A DNA stretch of 64,000 nucleotides from Limnothrix sp. FACHB-406 (GCF_014698235.1 NZ_JACJSP010000007.1:62001-126000); one strand, 5' to 3'. Positions 57,416 to 64,000 are shown, numbered from the stretch's first letter. Notes: generated by a model from the letters alone, not told the origin. Numbers and translations: made by a program.

Positions 57416-59101
57416 CTAGGGCAATTGAGTTTGGCTGCTCGATACAACAACCGGCAAGGTGACGGTGAAGCAACTGCCTTGGTTCAGTTGGCTGCGGACG
57501 GTGATTTGGCCCTGGTGCGATCGGGCGATCGCCTGGGCGATCGACAGGCCCAGCCCCGAACCGCCTTCCCGGTGCGATCGCACCCGATCGGCCCGCCAGA
57601 GCCGATCGAACACTTGGGGCAAATCCGCCGGGGCGATGCCGATGCCCGTGTCGTGAATTTCGACCCGCACTTGCCGATCGCGCCCGATCGGGAGAATCAC
57701 CACCCGCACCCGGCCGCCCGCTGGCGTGTATTTGAGGGCGTTATCCAAAAGGTTGCCAAACAGCCGCCACAGCAACAGCGGCTCGCCCAACACAACGGCG
57801 GGGGCCAGCTCACCGGTCAGCTCCAGTTGCTGCACGGCGGCCCGATCGGCGTAGGTTTCGATCAAAGACTCCAGCAATTCGGGCAGGTCGATCGATTGGC
57901 GTGGGTGGGCAGCAGCTCCGGGGGTGTCCTGACGCGCCAACAGCAATAGGTCTTCCACCAGTTGAGTCATTTGGCCGGTGGCGTTGTGAATCGCCGCCAG
58001 CTTGGCCACATCCGCCGGGTCAATCCGTTCGGGATGGGATTGCATCACTTCCACCGAGGTGCGAATGGCCGTCAGCGGCCCGCGCAACTCATGGGAGGCA
58101 TCGGCGGTGAATTGCCGCAGTTTCCGAAAGCTGGCTTCGATCGGCCGCAAGGATTGCCTGGTCAGCCACAGACCCCCGATCGTACTCAGCCCGATCGCCA
58201 GGCCCGAGCCGATCGCCAGGCCCGTTCCCAATTGCTGGATGGCGCTGTTGATCGGGTCGATCGATTCCGTCACCCGCACATAGCCCCGGAGTTTGGGGGG
58301 CTGCTTTTCCCCGTCATAGAACGGCGTGGTCAGAGTGCGGAGTTGTTGATCTTGGGCGATCGCCCCTTGGGGATGAGCGATCGGGGCCAGGGGCCAGGTG
58401 GGAAATATCCGACCTTGGCGAGCCAACAATTTGCCCCGCGCATCAAACCACTCCACCCCCTGATCCAGTTGCTGCAAACTTTGCCAGGGAATATCCAAAT
58501 CCCCATCGTTATCCAGGCGCGGCCGCAGTTCTTCCCGTTCTTCAAAAAAGCGATCGTCTAAAAAGTTGGCAGCATTGGGGCGATCGGTATTAAGGGTTCT
58601 TGCCTGATTTTGATTCGCTTGATTTTTGTCCTGATCTTCATCCTCATACTCATCTTGATCGTCGTCTTCATCATCTGATTCTTGCTCTCTTGCTCGCTCT
58701 TTTTGCACTTGCTTTGCTTGCTCTTTTTTGGCTTTTCTTTCCTGCTTTGCTCGCTCTTTTGCTTGCTGCCGATCGTCCTCGTCGCTGTCGTCGCTGTCGT
58801 CGTCAAATTGCTCTTCGTGGGCTTCCTCGATCGCCTTCAAACTGTGGCCGGCCGCTTGAGCCAACACCAAAAGCTGTCGATCGACCTGCTGATAGAGGCT
58901 ATAGATCAAAAACTCGATCGCCACGATCGACCCCAGCCCCACCACCGTCGTCATCACCGCCAAAAACGACAGCAACAACCGCCGTCGCAGGGCCCGAAAC
59001 TGGGTGGCTTCCGTGGCCGCCAGGGCAGTTCCAGGGCGCGATCGCTTAAGAACCCGCGTCCAGTTCCGGCAGTTGTGGATGAAGTCGGTAGCCCATGCCA
59101 T
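57416..59101 (-). CDS. sensor histidine kinase with highly charged periplasmic domain
   Basis: A 561-residue membrane kinase that pairs with the OmpR-type regulator just upstream. TM1 (LLLSFLAVMTTVVGLGSIVA) and TM2 (AIGSGLAIGLSTIGGLWLTR) flank a periplasmic domain of about 200 residues with acidic and Lys/Arg-rich blocks (FDDDSDDSDEDDRQQAKERA; ESDDEDDDQDEYEDEDQDKN). The phospho-acceptor His is in ADASHELRGPLTAIR; N, G1 and G2 boxes are FGNLLDNALKY, DTGIGIAP and GGSGLGLSIA. The only in-frame ATG before TM1 is at 59101, overlapping the regulator gene by 56 bp. Confidence 0.92.
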   Translation of the reverse strand: MAWATDFIHNCRNWTRVLKRSRPGTALAATEATQFRALRRRLLLSFLAVMTTVVGLGSIVAIEFLIYSLYQQVDRQLLVLAQAAGHSLKAIEEAHEEQFDDDSDDSDEDDRQQAKERAKQERKAKKEQAKQVQKERAREQESDDEDDDQDEYEDEDQDKNQANQNQARTLNTDRPNAANFLDDRFFEEREELRPRLDNDGDLDIPWQSLQQLDQGVEWFDARGKLLARQGRIFPTWPLAPIAHPQGAIAQDQQLRTLTTPFYDGEKQPPKLRGYVRVTESIDPINSAIQQLGTGLAIGSGLAIGLSTIGGLWLTRQSLRPIEASFRKLRQFTADASHELRGPLTAIRTSVEVMQSHPERIDPADVAKLAAIHNATGQMTQLVEDLLLLARQDTPGAAAHPRQSIDLPELLESLIETYADRAAVQQLELTGELAPAVVLGEPLLLWRLFGNLLDNALKYTPAGGRVRVVILPIGRDRQVRVEIHDTGIGIAPADLPQVFDRLWRADRVRSHREGGSGLGLSIAQAIARSHQGQITVRSQLNQGSCFTVTLPVVVSSSQTQLP

Positions 59102-59744
59102 AGCGCGTTTCGATTGCTGTTTTGGGTGCGCCTGCTTCGGTTAGTTTTTGGCGCAGGCGGCGGATGTGGGCGGTGATCGCTTCTTCGGTGGGTGGCTCGT
59201 CAAAGTTCCACAGGTTATCGAGAATGCTGGCGCGATCGAACGTGCGGCCCGGATGGCGCAAGAACAATTCCAACAGGGCATATTCCTTCGGTGACAGGGC
59301 GATCGGCTGGTGGCGGTAGGTGACTTCGCACGATCGCGGATCCAGCGCCAACGCCCCCCAACTCAGCACCGGATTGGTGGCCACGGTTCCCCGCCGCAAC
59401 AGGGCCCGCACCCGCGCCAAAAATTCCGACAAGTCAAAGGGCTTCACCACATAATCATCGGCCCCCGCATCGAGACCATCCACCTTGTCGCGGCTGGTGT
59501 CTCGCCCGGTCAGCAGCACGATCGGCACGGTTTGCCCAGCGGCTCGCAGTTGCCGACAGAGTTCCACCCCGCTGAGTTGGGGCAGCATCCAATCCAAAAT
59601 CAGCAAGTCATAGTCCAGGGATTGGGCCAACTCCAGCCCCGATCGCCCATCGCTGGCCAGGTCTACGGTGTAGTGGCGATCGCGCAGGGCCTCGGCCAGG
59701 GGCTGCAAGATCCGATCGTCATCCTCCACAAGCAAAATCCGCAT
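59046..59744 (-). CDS. OmpR/PhoB-family response regulator
   Basis: A 232-residue regulator. The receiver domain has the acidic pair (LLVEDDDRIL), the phosphorylation Asp in LLILDWMLPQLSG, Thr in IVLLTGRDT and Lys in DDYVVKPFD. The C-terminal winged helix (residues 130-225) ends RRLRQKLTEAGAPKTAIETR then YGMGYRLHP. It overlaps the kinase gene by 56 bp, so the two are a co-expressed two-component system. The stimulus is not known; the nearby secreted proteins may be its targets. Confidence 0.96.
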   Translation of the reverse strand: MRILLVEDDDRILQPLAEALRDRHYTVDLASDGRSGLELAQSLDYDLLILDWMLPQLSGVELCRQLRAAGQTVPIVLLTGRDTSRDKVDGLDAGADDYVVKPFDLSEFLARVRALLRRGTVATNPVLSWGALALDPRSCEVTYRHQPIALSPKEYALLELFLRHPGRTFDRASILDNLWNFDEPPTEEAITAHIRRLRQKLTEAGAPKTAIETRYGMGYRLHPQLPELDAGS

Positions 59745-59797: not shown

Positions 59798-60034
59798 TTA
59801 CCAATTAAACCGGCGATCGAACCGCGAATCAAAGCGATCGCGCTTGCGGGCATTGCAACTGCGACAAAGGGTTTGCAAGTTACTAATGTCGTTGGAGCCA
59901 CCAGCGGCAAGAGATTTGATGTGGTCAATTTCTAGGCGATCGCGGCAGCCGCAACTTTGGCATTGGTGATTGTCGCGATCGAGTACAAATTGTCGAACGG
60001 CTGGATCGATTTTGATGCGGGGAGTTTTGGCCAT
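59798..60034 (-). CDS. small HNH endonuclease
   Basis: A 78-residue HNH protein: RDNHQCQSCGCRDRLEIDHI with the first Cys pair and the Asp-His of the motif, then GGSNDISNLQTLCRSCNARK with the Asn and second Cys pair. The short basic N-terminus (MAKTPRIKIDPAVRQFVLDR) and Arg/Asp/Phe tail (RKRDRFDSRFDRRFNW) are typical of stand-alone HNH nucleases. AGAGG lies 8 nt upstream. The start is only 3 nt after the stop of the upstream KGK-like gene, so the two are translated together. A decayed copy of its start lies at 60532-60567. Confidence 0.9.
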   Translation of the reverse strand: MAKTPRIKIDPAVRQFVLDRDNHQCQSCGCRDRLEIDHIKSLAAGGSNDISNLQTLCRSCNARKRDRFDSRFDRRFNW

Positions 60035-60161
60035 TTGCTATTCCTCTGCCAATCGCCGAATTTCATCTAACGGAGAGTCAGCCGGTTCAATGCTGGCTTC
60101 TAATAAGGGCAATTCTGGCGTTTCTAGTTCTGGCTCTGGTTCATCGGGACAAAACTCGATC
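60010..60161. repeat. duplicated segment, copy 1 (HNH start plus KGK C-terminus)
   Basis: About 150 bp, matching 60543-60699. The block 60040-60125 differs from its partner at about one base. It spans the first codons of the HNH gene, the junction and the 3' third of the first KGK-like gene. Confidence 0.9.
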
Positions 60162-60418
60162 CTTAATCGCAAAGTTCCTGACTCCCACTCATTTTGCCCA
60201 AACCTCAACACTTGTCCTTCAACGCCTTCTTCAGTGAACCACTGCCCCCGCCCTTCAGTCCAACGATAGTTGCCATAACCCCTTACATAATTCTCAACCA
60301 CACTAGAGAGTCCTCTCATGAACTCTTTAACTGTGCAGGTTTCATTGGTTATACTGATGTGTTGAGCAGTAGAGATGGAGATCACCTCACCTAGCTTCAT
60401 TAATTGATGATTCTCCAC
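60038..60418 (-). CDS. KGK-family-like protein 1
   Basis: A 126-residue protein. The GTG at 60418 is chosen because GGAGG lies exactly 8 nt upstream and because it aligns the N-terminus with the next paralogue (both have EVIS after about 12 residues); the ATG at 60400 is an alternative. The C-terminal half has the family pattern EEGVEGQVLRFGQNEWESGT, LRLRIEFCPDEPEPE and SPLDEIRRLAEE. This matches my recollection of the cyanobacterial KGK family (EG-x-x-C-x-VL-x-G-x-x-W-x-KGK-x-R), although the KGK triplet itself is SGT here. The function is unknown. Confidence 0.75.
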   Translation of the reverse strand: MENHQLMKLGEVISISTAQHISITNETCTVKEFMRGLSSVVENYVRGYGNYRWTEGRGQWFTEEGVEGQVLRFGQNEWESGTLRLRIEFCPDEPEPELETPELPLLEASIEPADSPLDEIRRLAEE

Positions 60419-60531
60419 TCTGACTACCTCCAAATATAGTGCCAAGAGAATTAGATTCTTACGAATCTTTTTGGCGCTGAATTTTGCACCACAACTCAAC
60501 TTACAGATTAATCAAATTCGTAACTGTCACG

Positions 60532-60567
60532 CTACGAGTCAATTTTAGTGCGAGGTGTTTTGGCCAT
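60532..60567 (-). pseudogene. vestige of a second HNH gene
   Basis: ATG at 60567, then MAKTPRTKIDS and a TAG stop: the first nine codons match the intact HNH gene (MAKTPRIKI) with one change. The ribosome binding site (AGAGG, 7 nt upstream) and the tight spacing to the upstream KGK-like stop (2 nt) are kept. The rest of the nuclease is missing. It shows that a KGK-HNH pair was duplicated and that one nuclease was later lost. Confidence 0.85.
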
Positions 60568-60699
60568 TGCTATTCCTCTGCCAATCGCCGAATTTCATCT
60601 AACGGAGAATCAGCCGGTTCAATGCTGGCTTCTAATAAGGGCAATTCTGGCGTTTCTGGTTCTGGTTCTGGCTCCGGTTCATCAGGACAAAACTCGATC
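60543..60699. repeat. duplicated segment, copy 2 (HNH vestige plus KGK C-terminus)
   Basis: Partner of 60010-60161. It differs mainly by a short in-frame insertion in the Pro-Glu run of the KGK-like gene (PEPEPEPE in place of PEPELE). Confidence 0.9.
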
Positions 60700-60962
60700 G
60701 ACAACCTCAACCGCCCCGACTGCCACCCTTTTTTTCCATATCGCAGAGCTTCTCCCCTGATGCCTTCTGTAGAAAACCATAAACGGCGGTTGGAGTTCCA
60801 CTCAATAGTGGATATGTTATAGCCGGAATAGTGTTGCAGTGCATTGGCAATAACCTGTAGGAATTCTTGAACTGTAGAGGTTGGGTTTTTTAAGCCAATT
60901 TGATATCTCATTTCGCATGAGATCACTTCATGTGGTTTGAGAGATGTAAATTCCTGGGGCAT
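60570..60962 (-). CDS. KGK-family-like protein 2
   Basis: A 130-residue paralogue of protein 1. The last 45 residues (IEFCPDEPEPEPEPE, then LPLLEASIEPADSPLDEIRR) are almost identical to it, while the N-terminal halves have diverged strongly. The family core is TEGIRGEALRYGKKGWQSGR followed by LRLSIEFCPDEPE. The identical ends and different starts point to a partial duplication or gene conversion of the 3' end. No clear Shine-Dalgarno is seen. The HNH vestige follows at once. Confidence 0.75.
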   Translation of the reverse strand: MPQEFTSLKPHEVISCEMRYQIGLKNPTSTVQEFLQVIANALQHYSGYNISTIEWNSNRRLWFSTEGIRGEALRYGKKGWQSGRLRLSIEFCPDEPEPEPEPETPELPLLEASIEPADSPLDEIRRLAEE

Positions 60963-61005
60963 AGTTTTAACAAGTCCTGACTAAGGATAAGACTCCGGAT
61001 CAACT

Positions 61006-61326
61006 TTATCCATCAGCCAATCTACGAATTTCATCTAGAGGCTGATCAGGGTTGCCAGTCAAGGACTCTACTTCGTCTGGTTCATCTGGCTCAAAAAGCA
61101 ATGTTAGCCGCAGTCGTCCAGATTTCCATTTTGGTGCGCCTAGTCTTAAAACTTGGCATTTCATTCCTTCTTCTGAGAACAAAATTCTAAGATCCCCACC
61201 AAGGCGATCATTGATAATTTTTTGAATTTCTGAGATCTGGCTAGTGGGACGATTATTGATATAGTAGCCATACTCCATCGTGACCACTTCGTTGGACAAA
61301 AGTTCTTGCATTTTAGAAAAATCCAT
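61006..61326 (-). CDS. KGK-family-like protein 3
   Basis: A 106-residue, more distant paralogue. The core is SEEGMKCQVLRLGAPKWKSG then RLRLTLLFEPDEPDEVE, and the end is QPLDEIRRLADG, as in the other copies. AGAGG lies 9 nt before the ATG. The N-terminus contains EVVTMEYGYYINNRPTSQIS, matching EVIS in copies 1 and 2. It is 43 bp upstream of copy 2 on the same strand. Confidence 0.72.
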   Translation of the reverse strand: MDFSKMQELLSNEVVTMEYGYYINNRPTSQISEIQKIINDRLGGDLRILFSEEGMKCQVLRLGAPKWKSGRLRLTLLFEPDEPDEVESLTGNPDQPLDEIRRLADG

Positions 61327-61365
61327 GATGAATAACCTCTTGAAGATTACAGTTCTACTTCTACC

Positions 61366-61692
61366 CTATTCCCCAGCCAGCTTACGTAGCTCATCCAACG
61401 TCGAGTTGGATCCTTCGGGGTTAGTAATCTCTTCTTCTTGATCTGGATCAAGCTCAATTTCCAGAAAGAAACGCACCTTCCCTGACAGCCATTGTTTTTG
61501 ACCAGGACGCAAAACCCTACAGGGAAAACCATCCGAAAAAGCAGCCTTTTCTAAGTCCTCATCGTAGGTTTCTTCCAAGTTGGCAGTCATATCCGTAGCC
61601 AAGCAAGTCGAAATTTCCACAAAGGGCAAGTTGCCATCATCCGATCGAATGACATCCTCGGCATCAAGACGATAAACAATTGGCTCAGTCAT
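61366..61692 (-). CDS. KGK-family-like protein 4
   Basis: A 108-residue, most divergent member, strongly acidic. The core is DGFPCRVLRPGQKQWLSGKV then RFFLEIELDPDQEEE; this copy is closest to the recalled family pattern (C-x-VL-x-PG, then SGK). It ends STLDELRKLAGE. GAGG lies 9 nt before the ATG. It is the first of the four after the dynamin-like gene, 77 bp downstream of it, with a degenerate copy of the dispersed palindrome between them. Confidence 0.72.
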   Translation of the reverse strand: MTEPIVYRLDAEDVIRSDDGNLPFVEISTCLATDMTANLEETYDEDLEKAAFSDGFPCRVLRPGQKQWLSGKVRFFLEIELDPDQEEEITNPEGSNSTLDELRKLAGE

Positions 61693-61730
61693 TCAAAAAT
61701 GCCTCAAAAATCTTGATTTCTGTCACTAGA

Positions 61731-61750
61731 CAAGATGCTCAAGCCCCTTG
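61731..61750. repeat. degenerate copy of the dispersed 20-bp palindrome
   Basis: CAAGATGCTCAAGCCCCTTG keeps one full arm (CAAGCCCCTTG) and a changed left arm. It lies between KGK-like gene 4 and the dynamin-like gene. Confidence 0.6.
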
Positions 61751-61769
61751 CTGCCAAACACGGTTGGGG

Positions 61770-64000
61770 CTAGTTTACCAACTCAACGATCGGGAGTTGG
61801 TAGCGATCGCACCCCATGGATTGCAAACAGGAATCGATCGCCTCCACCGCTTGGTTATAAGTCGCAATTTGCTCCTGCAAAGCAGCTTTTTGTTCAGCCA
61901 GTTGCTCCAGTTGCTCTTGGGCTTCCTTCTCGATCGTTTTTTCCAAATGGTTACGGGCGATCGTGTATTGCTGCAAAATCACCTCTTCGTATTCCACCGC
62001 CACAGGCAACAGTTGCGACTTCAGAGTTTGGCTCACCGCTTGGCGAAAGGTGCTTGTCACGGTGCGCTTGACCTTGGGGGCAAAGTCGAGTTCTAACAAT
62101 TGGCGAATGGCGGGTTCTGCTTCCACCATTGGCAAAAAGTCATAGCCCACAGAAGTTTGGCGCAACACTTCCCGAAACTGATAGAGCGAAACCGAGCCTT
62201 CCTGATAGAAATCGGGACTTTCGCGCACATAGCGATCGCACTCAGTGCTCGCCTCGCTGCGAAGGGCTAATTGCACGGATTGTTCGATCGCCTTCAATCG
62301 ATCTTCTAGCCCCGCATCATCCCCCACCAATCGGCATAGCTCCCGATAATAATCCTGATGGCGGATTCGATCCATCAACAATGAAAAGAGCCGACGAATC
62401 ACCCGATCAATTTCCGCAGTTAGCACTTCTTCTAGTTCATTGGCTAAGTAATAGAACGCCTCAACCAAAATTGCTAACAAAGGAGCGGTGGAATTGCGTG
62501 GATGAGCCAACGTAGCTCGCTGATAAGCTTGCTTGACGGAAAATCCATTCAGCAGCTCTCCCATCCGTCCTTGCATCCGCACCTGCAAATTGCGGAAATC
62601 GTCTTCAAAGCTGACACATTGATTGGTGACAATCTCGTTAACTTCACGCTTTAAATGATCTGCAAAATTTTCGGCTAGGCGCTTCAGATCGGTGTTGAGT
62701 CGATCGAGCCGATTGCTTTTAATGCCTTCGAGTTCCGTGGGCTGGCTATCGAGTTCTCGGTAGCGATCGCTATACAACCGACGCAGGGCCACGCAAAGGG
62801 GCTGTAAATCATTGGCCAAAGTCGAGAAAAGTTGCGGCCGCTTTTCTTCCGTTAAATAGCGCGTGATGCCCTCTCGAAATACTTCAATGCCACTGTCATG
62901 AATCAGTTGATCCACCAGGGGTGAACCATATTCACCCAAAATCCGAACATAGTTTTCGTTTTGGCTTTCATAGTTATTAACCGAGATCCGAAAACGATTG
63001 GCCGGTAATTTGCCAGAACTGGAGCAATAGCGATTGAATTCATAGACAAACTGCGGTGTTTCTTCGGCAATTTCTGCACTTTTGATGCTGCTGGCAAAAA
63101 TGCTGTCGAGGCCGAAGCGATCGCCCGCACTGGTTTCTCGGAGTTGGCTGCCATAGAACCCCAGCAGCCCACTGGTTTTATAGAGCCGCTGTCCATCTCG
63201 AAACTGACTGGAAATCAGAGACTCTAGGCGTTGCCGCAGTTGAACGTTGTACCAAGTTTCATCAATGCGATTGAAAACAAAAAAGACCCGATCGCGAATT
63301 CCCGAATTGCTGCGCATCGCTTCCAGGAGTTCGGTTTCCTCTTTCGTCATGTCACCCGCTGCGGCTGGCTTCAGCACTGCAACCACAGCGGATGTATCTT
63401 CATTGCTAATTTTGCTGTAGGTGAGGGCGGCATCCTTTTTAACTGGTGCATCAATCCCTGGCAAATCAACCAGGACGTTACCATCTTCCAACAAAGGATG
63501 ATAGCAGTAATATTCCACCCGTTTGAGCACAGCGCTGTTGCTACCCCGGCGAGCATAGGCCGCAGCATCTTTGAGGTTAGTGAAATTGAACTGCTCCATT
63601 GAGTAGGTGGTGTTGCTGGTGGGATGAATGCGATCGCGATTAGCCCACCAGCCTTCAATCAGTAACTTGAGCGCTTTTGCCTGTTTAGCCCGTTCAGACT
63701 TAGATTCACCGCCTTCTTTTTCAACCATCTTTTCACAAGCAGTGAGAATGGTTGAAACCGTCTCTTCTCGGTTCAAATCAATTGTAGAAGAAACCCCCAG
63801 ACGCTCTAACAAAACCTGCACTTCTTCGTGGATTTCAGCCGCACTGGCAAAGGTCAATACAACCCGTTCGCGATCGCTCGGTGCATAGGCGATATAACAT
63901 TCAATGCCGGTGGCGTGACCTTCGGCACTGTAGAGCAATTCTCGACCGAGCAAGGCGTTAATCAGCATTGATTTGCCAGCGCTGAAAGCCCCCACAAAGG
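61770..64000 (-). CDS. dynamin-like GTPase (partial, N-terminus outside window)
   Basis: A large GTPase of the dynamin family; 742 complete codons are visible, and the 5' end is cut by the right edge just before the P-loop. G1 is GAFSAGKSMLINALLG, G2 Thr is in GHATGIECY, G3 is VLVDLPGIDAPV and G4 is FVFNRIDETW. A long helical stalk follows (RLNTDLKRLAENFADHLKRE and others), and the protein ends in a coiled coil (LEKTIEKEAQEQLEQLAEQK). No clear membrane helix is seen. Bacterial dynamins remodel or guard membranes, some during phage infection. It is the first visible gene of the KGK-HNH cluster. Confidence 0.9.
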   Translation of the reverse strand, partial: FVGAFSAGKSMLINALLGRELLYSAEGHATGIECYIAYAPSDRERVVLTFASAAEIHEEVQVLLERLGVSSTIDLNREETVSTILTACEKMVEKEGGESKSERAKQAKALKLLIEGWWANRDRIHPTSNTTYSMEQFNFTNLKDAAAYARRGSNSAVLKRVEYYCYHPLLEDGNVLVDLPGIDAPVKKDAALTYSKISNEDTSAVVAVLKPAAAGDMTKEETELLEAMRSNSGIRDRVFFVFNRIDETWYNVQLRQRLESLISSQFRDGQRLYKTSGLLGFYGSQLRETSAGDRFGLDSIFASSIKSAEIAEETPQFVYEFNRYCSSSGKLPANRFRISVNNYESQNENYVRILGEYGSPLVDQLIHDSGIEVFREGITRYLTEEKRPQLFSTLANDLQPLCVALRRLYSDRYRELDSQPTELEGIKSNRLDRLNTDLKRLAENFADHLKREVNEIVTNQCVSFEDDFRNLQVRMQGRMGELLNGFSVKQAYQRATLAHPRNSTAPLLAILVEAFYYLANELEEVLTAEIDRVIRRLFSLLMDRIRHQDYYRELCRLVGDDAGLEDRLKAIEQSVQLALRSEASTECDRYVRESPDFYQEGSVSLYQFREVLRQTSVGYDFLPMVEAEPAIRQLLELDFAPKVKRTVTSTFRQAVSQTLKSQLLPVAVEYEEVILQQYTIARNHLEKTIEKEAQEQLEQLAEQKAALQEQIATYNQAVEAIDSCLQSMGCDRYQLPIVELVN

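Follow-up and report, generated by a model that had tools for sequence, protein, structure and literature searches.

SynDLP, the best-studied cyanobacterial dynamin with a eukaryote-like structure, is one of a group of dynamin-like GTPases whose genes lie next to genes for KGK proteins (PF08872), a family for which, to our knowledge, no function has been established. The adjacency was described by Jilly in 2018 under the name "KGK clade" (PMC5827413) and was noted again together with the structure of SynDLP (PMC10104851), and it was in the literature already when the original prediction for the DNA analysed here presented it as new. SynDLP binds membranes and promotes their fusion in vitro (PMC10104851, PMC9950537), is reported to be non-essential under standard growth and is thought to act on thylakoid membranes (PMC9950537). 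In a lexA mutant of Synechocystis the genes slr0868-0871 are derepressed ~6-16-fold, along with genes for motility and salt response (PMC4759255).

Two other known types of dynamin superfamily GTPases have to be considered in a comparison with the protein described below, namely LeoA/LeoBC (PADLOC) and DynA of B. subtilis, which delays lysis after phage infection (PMC8844932). The LeoA/LeoBC models produce only short N-terminal matches to our protein (40 and 33 bits) and no full-length match of the Eleos type (NCBIfam LeoA, 24.4 versus 325), and its score against the DynA equivalog model is 37, against a cut-off of 1600. Unlike the known phage-defence-linked bacterial dynamins, it is encoded by a gene that has no tandem partner dynamin beside it.

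The closest described relatives are the KGK-clade dynamins, with which our locus shares full-length orthology to SynDLP, the extended P-loop, both cysteines of the BSE domain and the presence of KGK genes downstream; it differs from the clade, as described in the literature that we found, by an HNH gene, an array of four KGK genes and the exchange of KGK bodies. A search for literature that combines dynamin-like proteins, HNH nucleases and cyanobacteria, which covered few subscription papers and was made outside of the supplements, found none, and the HNH link and the changeable KGK array appear to be previously undescribed.

The cluster in Limnothrix sp. FACHB-406

The stretch of Limnothrix DNA that we analysed (64,000 nucleotides, here called the window) carries near its right end the six same-strand genes that had been claimed for it. 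All are on the minus strand, in the order dynamin, KGK4, KGK3, KGK2, KGK1 and HNH. The 3' part of the dynamin gene (61770..64000; Pfam Dynamin_N, 5e-18, above the gathering score) runs to the window's edge, and an extension of the contig to the right, as had been proposed, contains the rest of it, with the best start an ATG at window-equivalent position 64163 and a product of 797 aa. In a phmmer comparison with Slr0869 (PDB 7zw6), residues 50-833 of the 837-aa ORF align with residues 6-790 of the chain (E 7e-295). The translation includes the extended P-loop GAFSAGKSMLINALL, which fits the motif GxxxxGKS/TxL/INALL/I as defined in PMC5827413, and both BSE-domain cysteines (C8 and C777 of SynDLP), which are conserved across KGK-clade dynamins and form a disulfide (PMC10104851), are aligned in it. 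As judged from these sequence comparisons, the window GTPase is a full-length orthologue of SynDLP/Slr0869 of Synechocystis.

Downstream of the dynamin gene are the genes for KGK4 (61366..61692, 108 aa; Pfam KGK, 1.5e-11, 45.2 bits), KGK3 (61006..61326, 106 aa; 2.4e-12), KGK2 (60570..60962, 130 aa; 7.2e-15) and KGK1 (60038..60418, 126 aa; 1.2e-13), the first three of which end in the tails STLDELRKLAGE, QPLDEIRRLADG and SPLDEIRRLAEE. For KGK1 we prefer a GTG start at 60418, which has an upstream GGAGG, over the TTG at 60499 of the mechanical ORF. The original prediction that these small proteins are related KGK members holds for all four, which score 45-56 bits against a Pfam gathering cut-off of 25.6. 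The intergenic gaps are 77 bp (dynamin-KGK4), 39 bp (KGK4-KGK3), 43 bp (KGK3-KGK2), 151 bp (KGK2-KGK1; 70 bp with the TTG start) and 3 bp (KGK1-HNH).

KGK proteins have a D-D-V region at the N-terminus, followed by a helical middle that varies, a core around W-x-K-G-K and an acidic linker, and they end in a helix; an S-P-L-D-D-(L/I)-R terminal helix is present in 98 of 120 dynamin-adjacent KGKs and is found in KGKs elsewhere as well. AlphaFold models of KGK2 (AlphaFold2, mean pLDDT 79.5) and a second KGK (73.4) contain two short strand pairs and helices, with the C-terminal helix isolated. For these two models no fold relative was detected in the PDB (best E 0.44) or among viral models, and weak matches to an MDM2-like fold (TM <0.3) were disregarded.

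The last gene of the cluster (59798..60034) encodes a predicted HNH zinc-ribbon nuclease of 78 aa (Pfam HNH, 2.2e-14; 53.8 bits versus a PF01844 cut-off of 21.4) with intact catalytic and zinc residues. The protein has the Cys4 zinc ribbon and the H/N/N motif of the PF01844 nucleases in common with them, and H38, N52, N61 and the four cysteines are kept in at least 60 of 61 distinct relatives; it differs from other HNH nucleases by its tail, DxRFRRxF, and by a gap in score. In a sample of 116 cyanobacterial genomes, members of the subfamily score at least 70 bits, apart from one partial match beside a KGK at 54.5, whereas other cyanobacterial HNH genes score at most 57. By this measure of sequence, the cluster-linked HNH proteins are a distinct small subfamily, clearly separated by score.

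The 3' ends of the window's KGK genes are repetitive. A 43-nt repeat at the end that encodes the C-terminus is common to all four, and a longer direct repeat of 117 nt, also tail-encoding, joins the 3' ends of KGK1 (60026..60142, minus strand) and KGK2 (60558..60674, minus strand) at 93% identity. Behind KGK2, on the same strand, there is a relic of 30 nt (60539..60568) that is 83% identical to the start of the HNH gene (60006-60035) and whose alignment score beats 100 of 100 shuffles; on its sequence, it is to be read as the footprint of a KGK/HNH duplication.

A response regulator and a histidine kinase are encoded at 57416-59744, 53 bp past the HNH gene, and the kinase has a long low-complexity stretch rich in Asp, Glu and Lys after its first transmembrane segment. 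We do not count this pair as part of the cluster, since congener G116 has a different ORF, on the opposite strand, after HNH.

Distribution of the cluster and turnover of its KGK genes

Our main survey was based on 116 genomes drawn evenly from the phylum, with KGK detection extended beyond the Pfam search by an HMM built for the analysis. The dynamin was found in 37 of these genomes, KGK in 35 and the specific HNH subfamily in 33; dynamin and KGK occur together in 32, dynamin and HNH in 31 (Fisher 7e-20) and all three in 28. The HNH gene is directly downstream of dynamin in 25 of 33 cases, across 12 families, and 49 of 86 KGK genes are downstream of dynamin, so the adjacency for which a cyanobacterial survey had been suggested is not confined to the window strain. 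In a larger set of 114 loci, which includes some near-duplicates and is biased to Nostocales, the HNH gene follows the dynamin gene on the same strand at 67 and is at none of them upstream or on the other strand; about 40% of the dynamin loci have no HNH. When neighbours were clustered at 112 dynamin loci, KGK recurred at 71 and HNH at 64, always on the same strand, and the next most frequent family at 22. The fixed link of dynamin, KGK and HNH that had been supposed for the window is thus widespread.

In a wider draw of 386 genomes the dynamin was present in 89, representing 50 genera. It is near-universal in the members of a Nostocaceae-like family (f7) in the main sample. The closest genome found is that of Limnothrix sp. 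CACIAM 69d, of the same genus (98%). The genome of Synechocystis PCC 6803 lies outside the sample, in which the best match to SynDLP is 75%. The dynamin genes of three genomes (G005, G062 and G095) are broken by stops or split, which indicates that the locus decays in some genomes. A scan upstream of the dynamin genes with the cyanobacterial form of an SOS-box-like consensus detected the relaxed motif at 1 of 114 loci, the same as in shuffles, and control by LexA through that box is therefore not supported.

The three components are not equally constant. In one genus (g28) and in genome G070 a KGK-HNH pair is retained apart from the dynamin of the same genome, and in family f2, where the survey search detected no KGK, dynamin adjoins HNH; these arrangements make dynamin and HNH look like a constant core and KGK like a variable insert. 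There are nine loci with HNH and no adjoining KGK, and five genomes (G002, G058, G056, G042 and G048) have the HNH subfamily and no detected KGK. The cluster is a conserved chromosomal operon of cyanobacteria in which a SynDLP-type membrane-remodelling GTPase and a small HNH are constant, and what lies between them, 0-6 KGK genes, varies.

The contents of this middle slot change between close relatives, in which the KGK bodies are just 27-48% identical and the dynamin and HNH genes on either side of them near-identical. Between the window's genome and congener G116, dynamin is 93% and HNH 95% identical and the KGKs only 46-74%, and for pairs of loci with 90-95% dynamin identity the median best KGK match is 56%, that of HNH 91%. 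In blastn comparisons of the pairs L161/L165, L148/L161 and L194/L200, identity is ~91-95% in the flanks and in dynamin, and homology ends just past dynamin, returns over the final 70-100 nt of KGK, which encode the tail, and runs on through HNH; it is this loss of body homology that accounts for the low KGK identity between close loci. Among close single-KGK pairs, mainly from one Anabaena/Dolichospermum group with the addition of Scytonema/Rhizonema and L087/L088, the bodies are <50% identical in amino acids in 21 of 40, and the tails are mostly 84-94% identical in nucleotides versus a baseline of 73% computed from aligned columns only. The contrast between kept C-terminal ends and diverging N-terminal bodies, which had been noticed in the four window proteins, is confirmed by these pairs and is sharper than the window alone could reveal.

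Clues to the origin of this pattern come from locus L199, the array of which has three KGK types that reappear in L082, L161 and L148, in the last two as single KGKs. An ancestral array with differential loss and recombination at the tails explains this without recent transfer, and since a search for recent horizontal donors of the swapped bodies found none, we prefer differential loss from an older array. The comparison of KGK sequences in this three-gene array suggests differential loss together with tail-to-tail recombination. Relics of the HNH start occur in three lineages (the window, L149 and L088), and the array might owe its diversity to recombination at the tail and HNH-start sequences that duplicated some genes and removed others. 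Pairwise Nei-Gojobori estimates of dN/dS, which are saturated in the wider pair, are 0.03 for dynamin, 0.06 for HNH and 0.08-0.17 for KGK; positive selection on whole KGK genes is not seen in the last of these values, which are below 1.

What the cluster might do

The anatomy of the cluster suggests constant executors with changing adaptors, a combination typical of conflict systems. The module probably has a role in conflict or in a stress response. Our preferred reading, to which we would assign a probability of about 0.4, is that a membrane GTPase and a predicted nuclease are served by swappable KGK adaptors. The KGK proteins would be acidic adaptors that attach by their constant C-terminal helix to a partner that does not change, either the GTPase or the nuclease, and that read a changing cue with their variable body; when the cue is present, the GTPase would act at the membrane and the HNH nuclease would cut nucleic acid. 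A changing cue would be more in keeping with a conflict, against phages or incoming DNA, than with housekeeping, and DynA is an example of a dynamin that can limit phage damage (PMC8844932). We advance only tentatively the more specific proposal of a new kind of cyanobacterial conflict system, whose eukaryote-like dynamin and HNH nuclease are aimed by an exchangeable KGK array with constant docking tails. Points against the adaptor reading are the KGK dN/dS values below 1, the dynamin loci without HNH, the KGK genes with unrelated neighbours described below, and the reported dispensability and presumed thylakoid site of action of SynDLP.

The defence role that was first proposed for the cluster is plausible and unproven. 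Few of 97 neighbouring genes have defence-like matches, the neighbours are housekeeping genes, and searches for dynamin on plasmids and for KGK in phages found neither; the locus has neither a defence-gene neighbourhood nor mobile elements to mark it as a defence system. The housekeeping neighbours, the near-universal dynamin of f7 and the lack of plasmid hits count against a typical, patchy defence system.

The same stable chromosomal setting, together with strong purifying selection on the dynamin, would be expected of a membrane-maintenance operon, in which the dynamin would mend or reshape thylakoid or plasma membranes in stress under regulation by KGKs, and HNH would be a linked nuclease of the stress response or a helper in DNA repair that has no role in defence. 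Such an operon, taken with this part for HNH, is a possibility that we regard as somewhat less likely than the adaptor reading. The activities of SynDLP on membranes in vitro (PMC10104851, PMC9950537) agree with it, as does the LexA-dependent co-expression of slr0868-0871, which, shared as it is with genes for motility and salt response, is compatible with a stress function too (PMC4759255); but the rapid replacement of KGK bodies while their flanks stay constant and the tight tie to one HNH subfamily are left unexplained. The HNH partner and the recombining KGK slot speak against a view of SynDLP as purely a thylakoid housekeeper and provide a concrete, testable lead on its role in vivo, and the nuclease partner and the changing array are a first handle on the role of KGK proteins.

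It is also conceivable, although improbable, that HNH acts as a selfish nuclease, or as one that promotes recombination, and drives KGK duplication and exchange by cutting at KGK tails, its tie to dynamin being positional only. The start of HNH lies against the KGK stop or overlaps it (a gap of at most 20 bp at 29 of 59 KGK-HNH junctions, a 4-bp overlap at 12), and HNH-start relics behind internal KGKs, KGK-HNH pairs away from dynamin and swapped bodies with kept tails all agree with such an activity; yet HNH is as conserved as dynamin (dN/dS 0.03-0.06 for the two) and persists beside it without any KGK, as in f2. Least probable is a toxin-antidote pair, a basic HNH (median pI 9.5, versus 4.85 for KGK) restrained by acidic KGKs as inhibitors or DNA mimics, which would suit the adjoining, often overlapping genes and the multiple diverging KGK copies but not the loci and genomes with HNH and no KGK listed above, the KGKs that exist without HNH, or a nearly invariant HNH, against which antidotes need not diversify.

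KGK genes outside of the cluster

The Limnothrix genome has six KGK genes, four in the cluster and two on another contig (C6), and all six products are above the curated PF08872 cut-off. The latter two are a tandem overlapping pair directly behind a DICT/CHASE6_C/GAF histidine kinase gene (L008:7003-9962), an arrangement also seen in congener G040 (L126); with this kinase in front, they do not represent a second dynamin locus. In several lineages (L104, L105, L106, L107, L098, L101-L103 and L135) KGK genes are flanked by a ccsA-like gene, for cytochrome c assembly, and by a tilS-like gene, as named from a domain scan of the neighbours in L104, and at four such loci the KGK domain is fused to an acidic repetitive tail of 300-500 aa. 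Other KGK genes adjoin an amidase gene. With such unrelated neighbours, KGK proteins are evidently not dedicated to the dynamin-HNH module. Proteins of 480-770 aa with 2-4 KGK-like repeats are encoded at L077:6042-7538, L121:6360-8039, L108 and L133, in the first two cases directly behind a cluster HNH gene. On two Nostoc plasmids (L251 and L252), KGK genes are located beside tyrosine integrase genes and might be mobile KGK cassettes.
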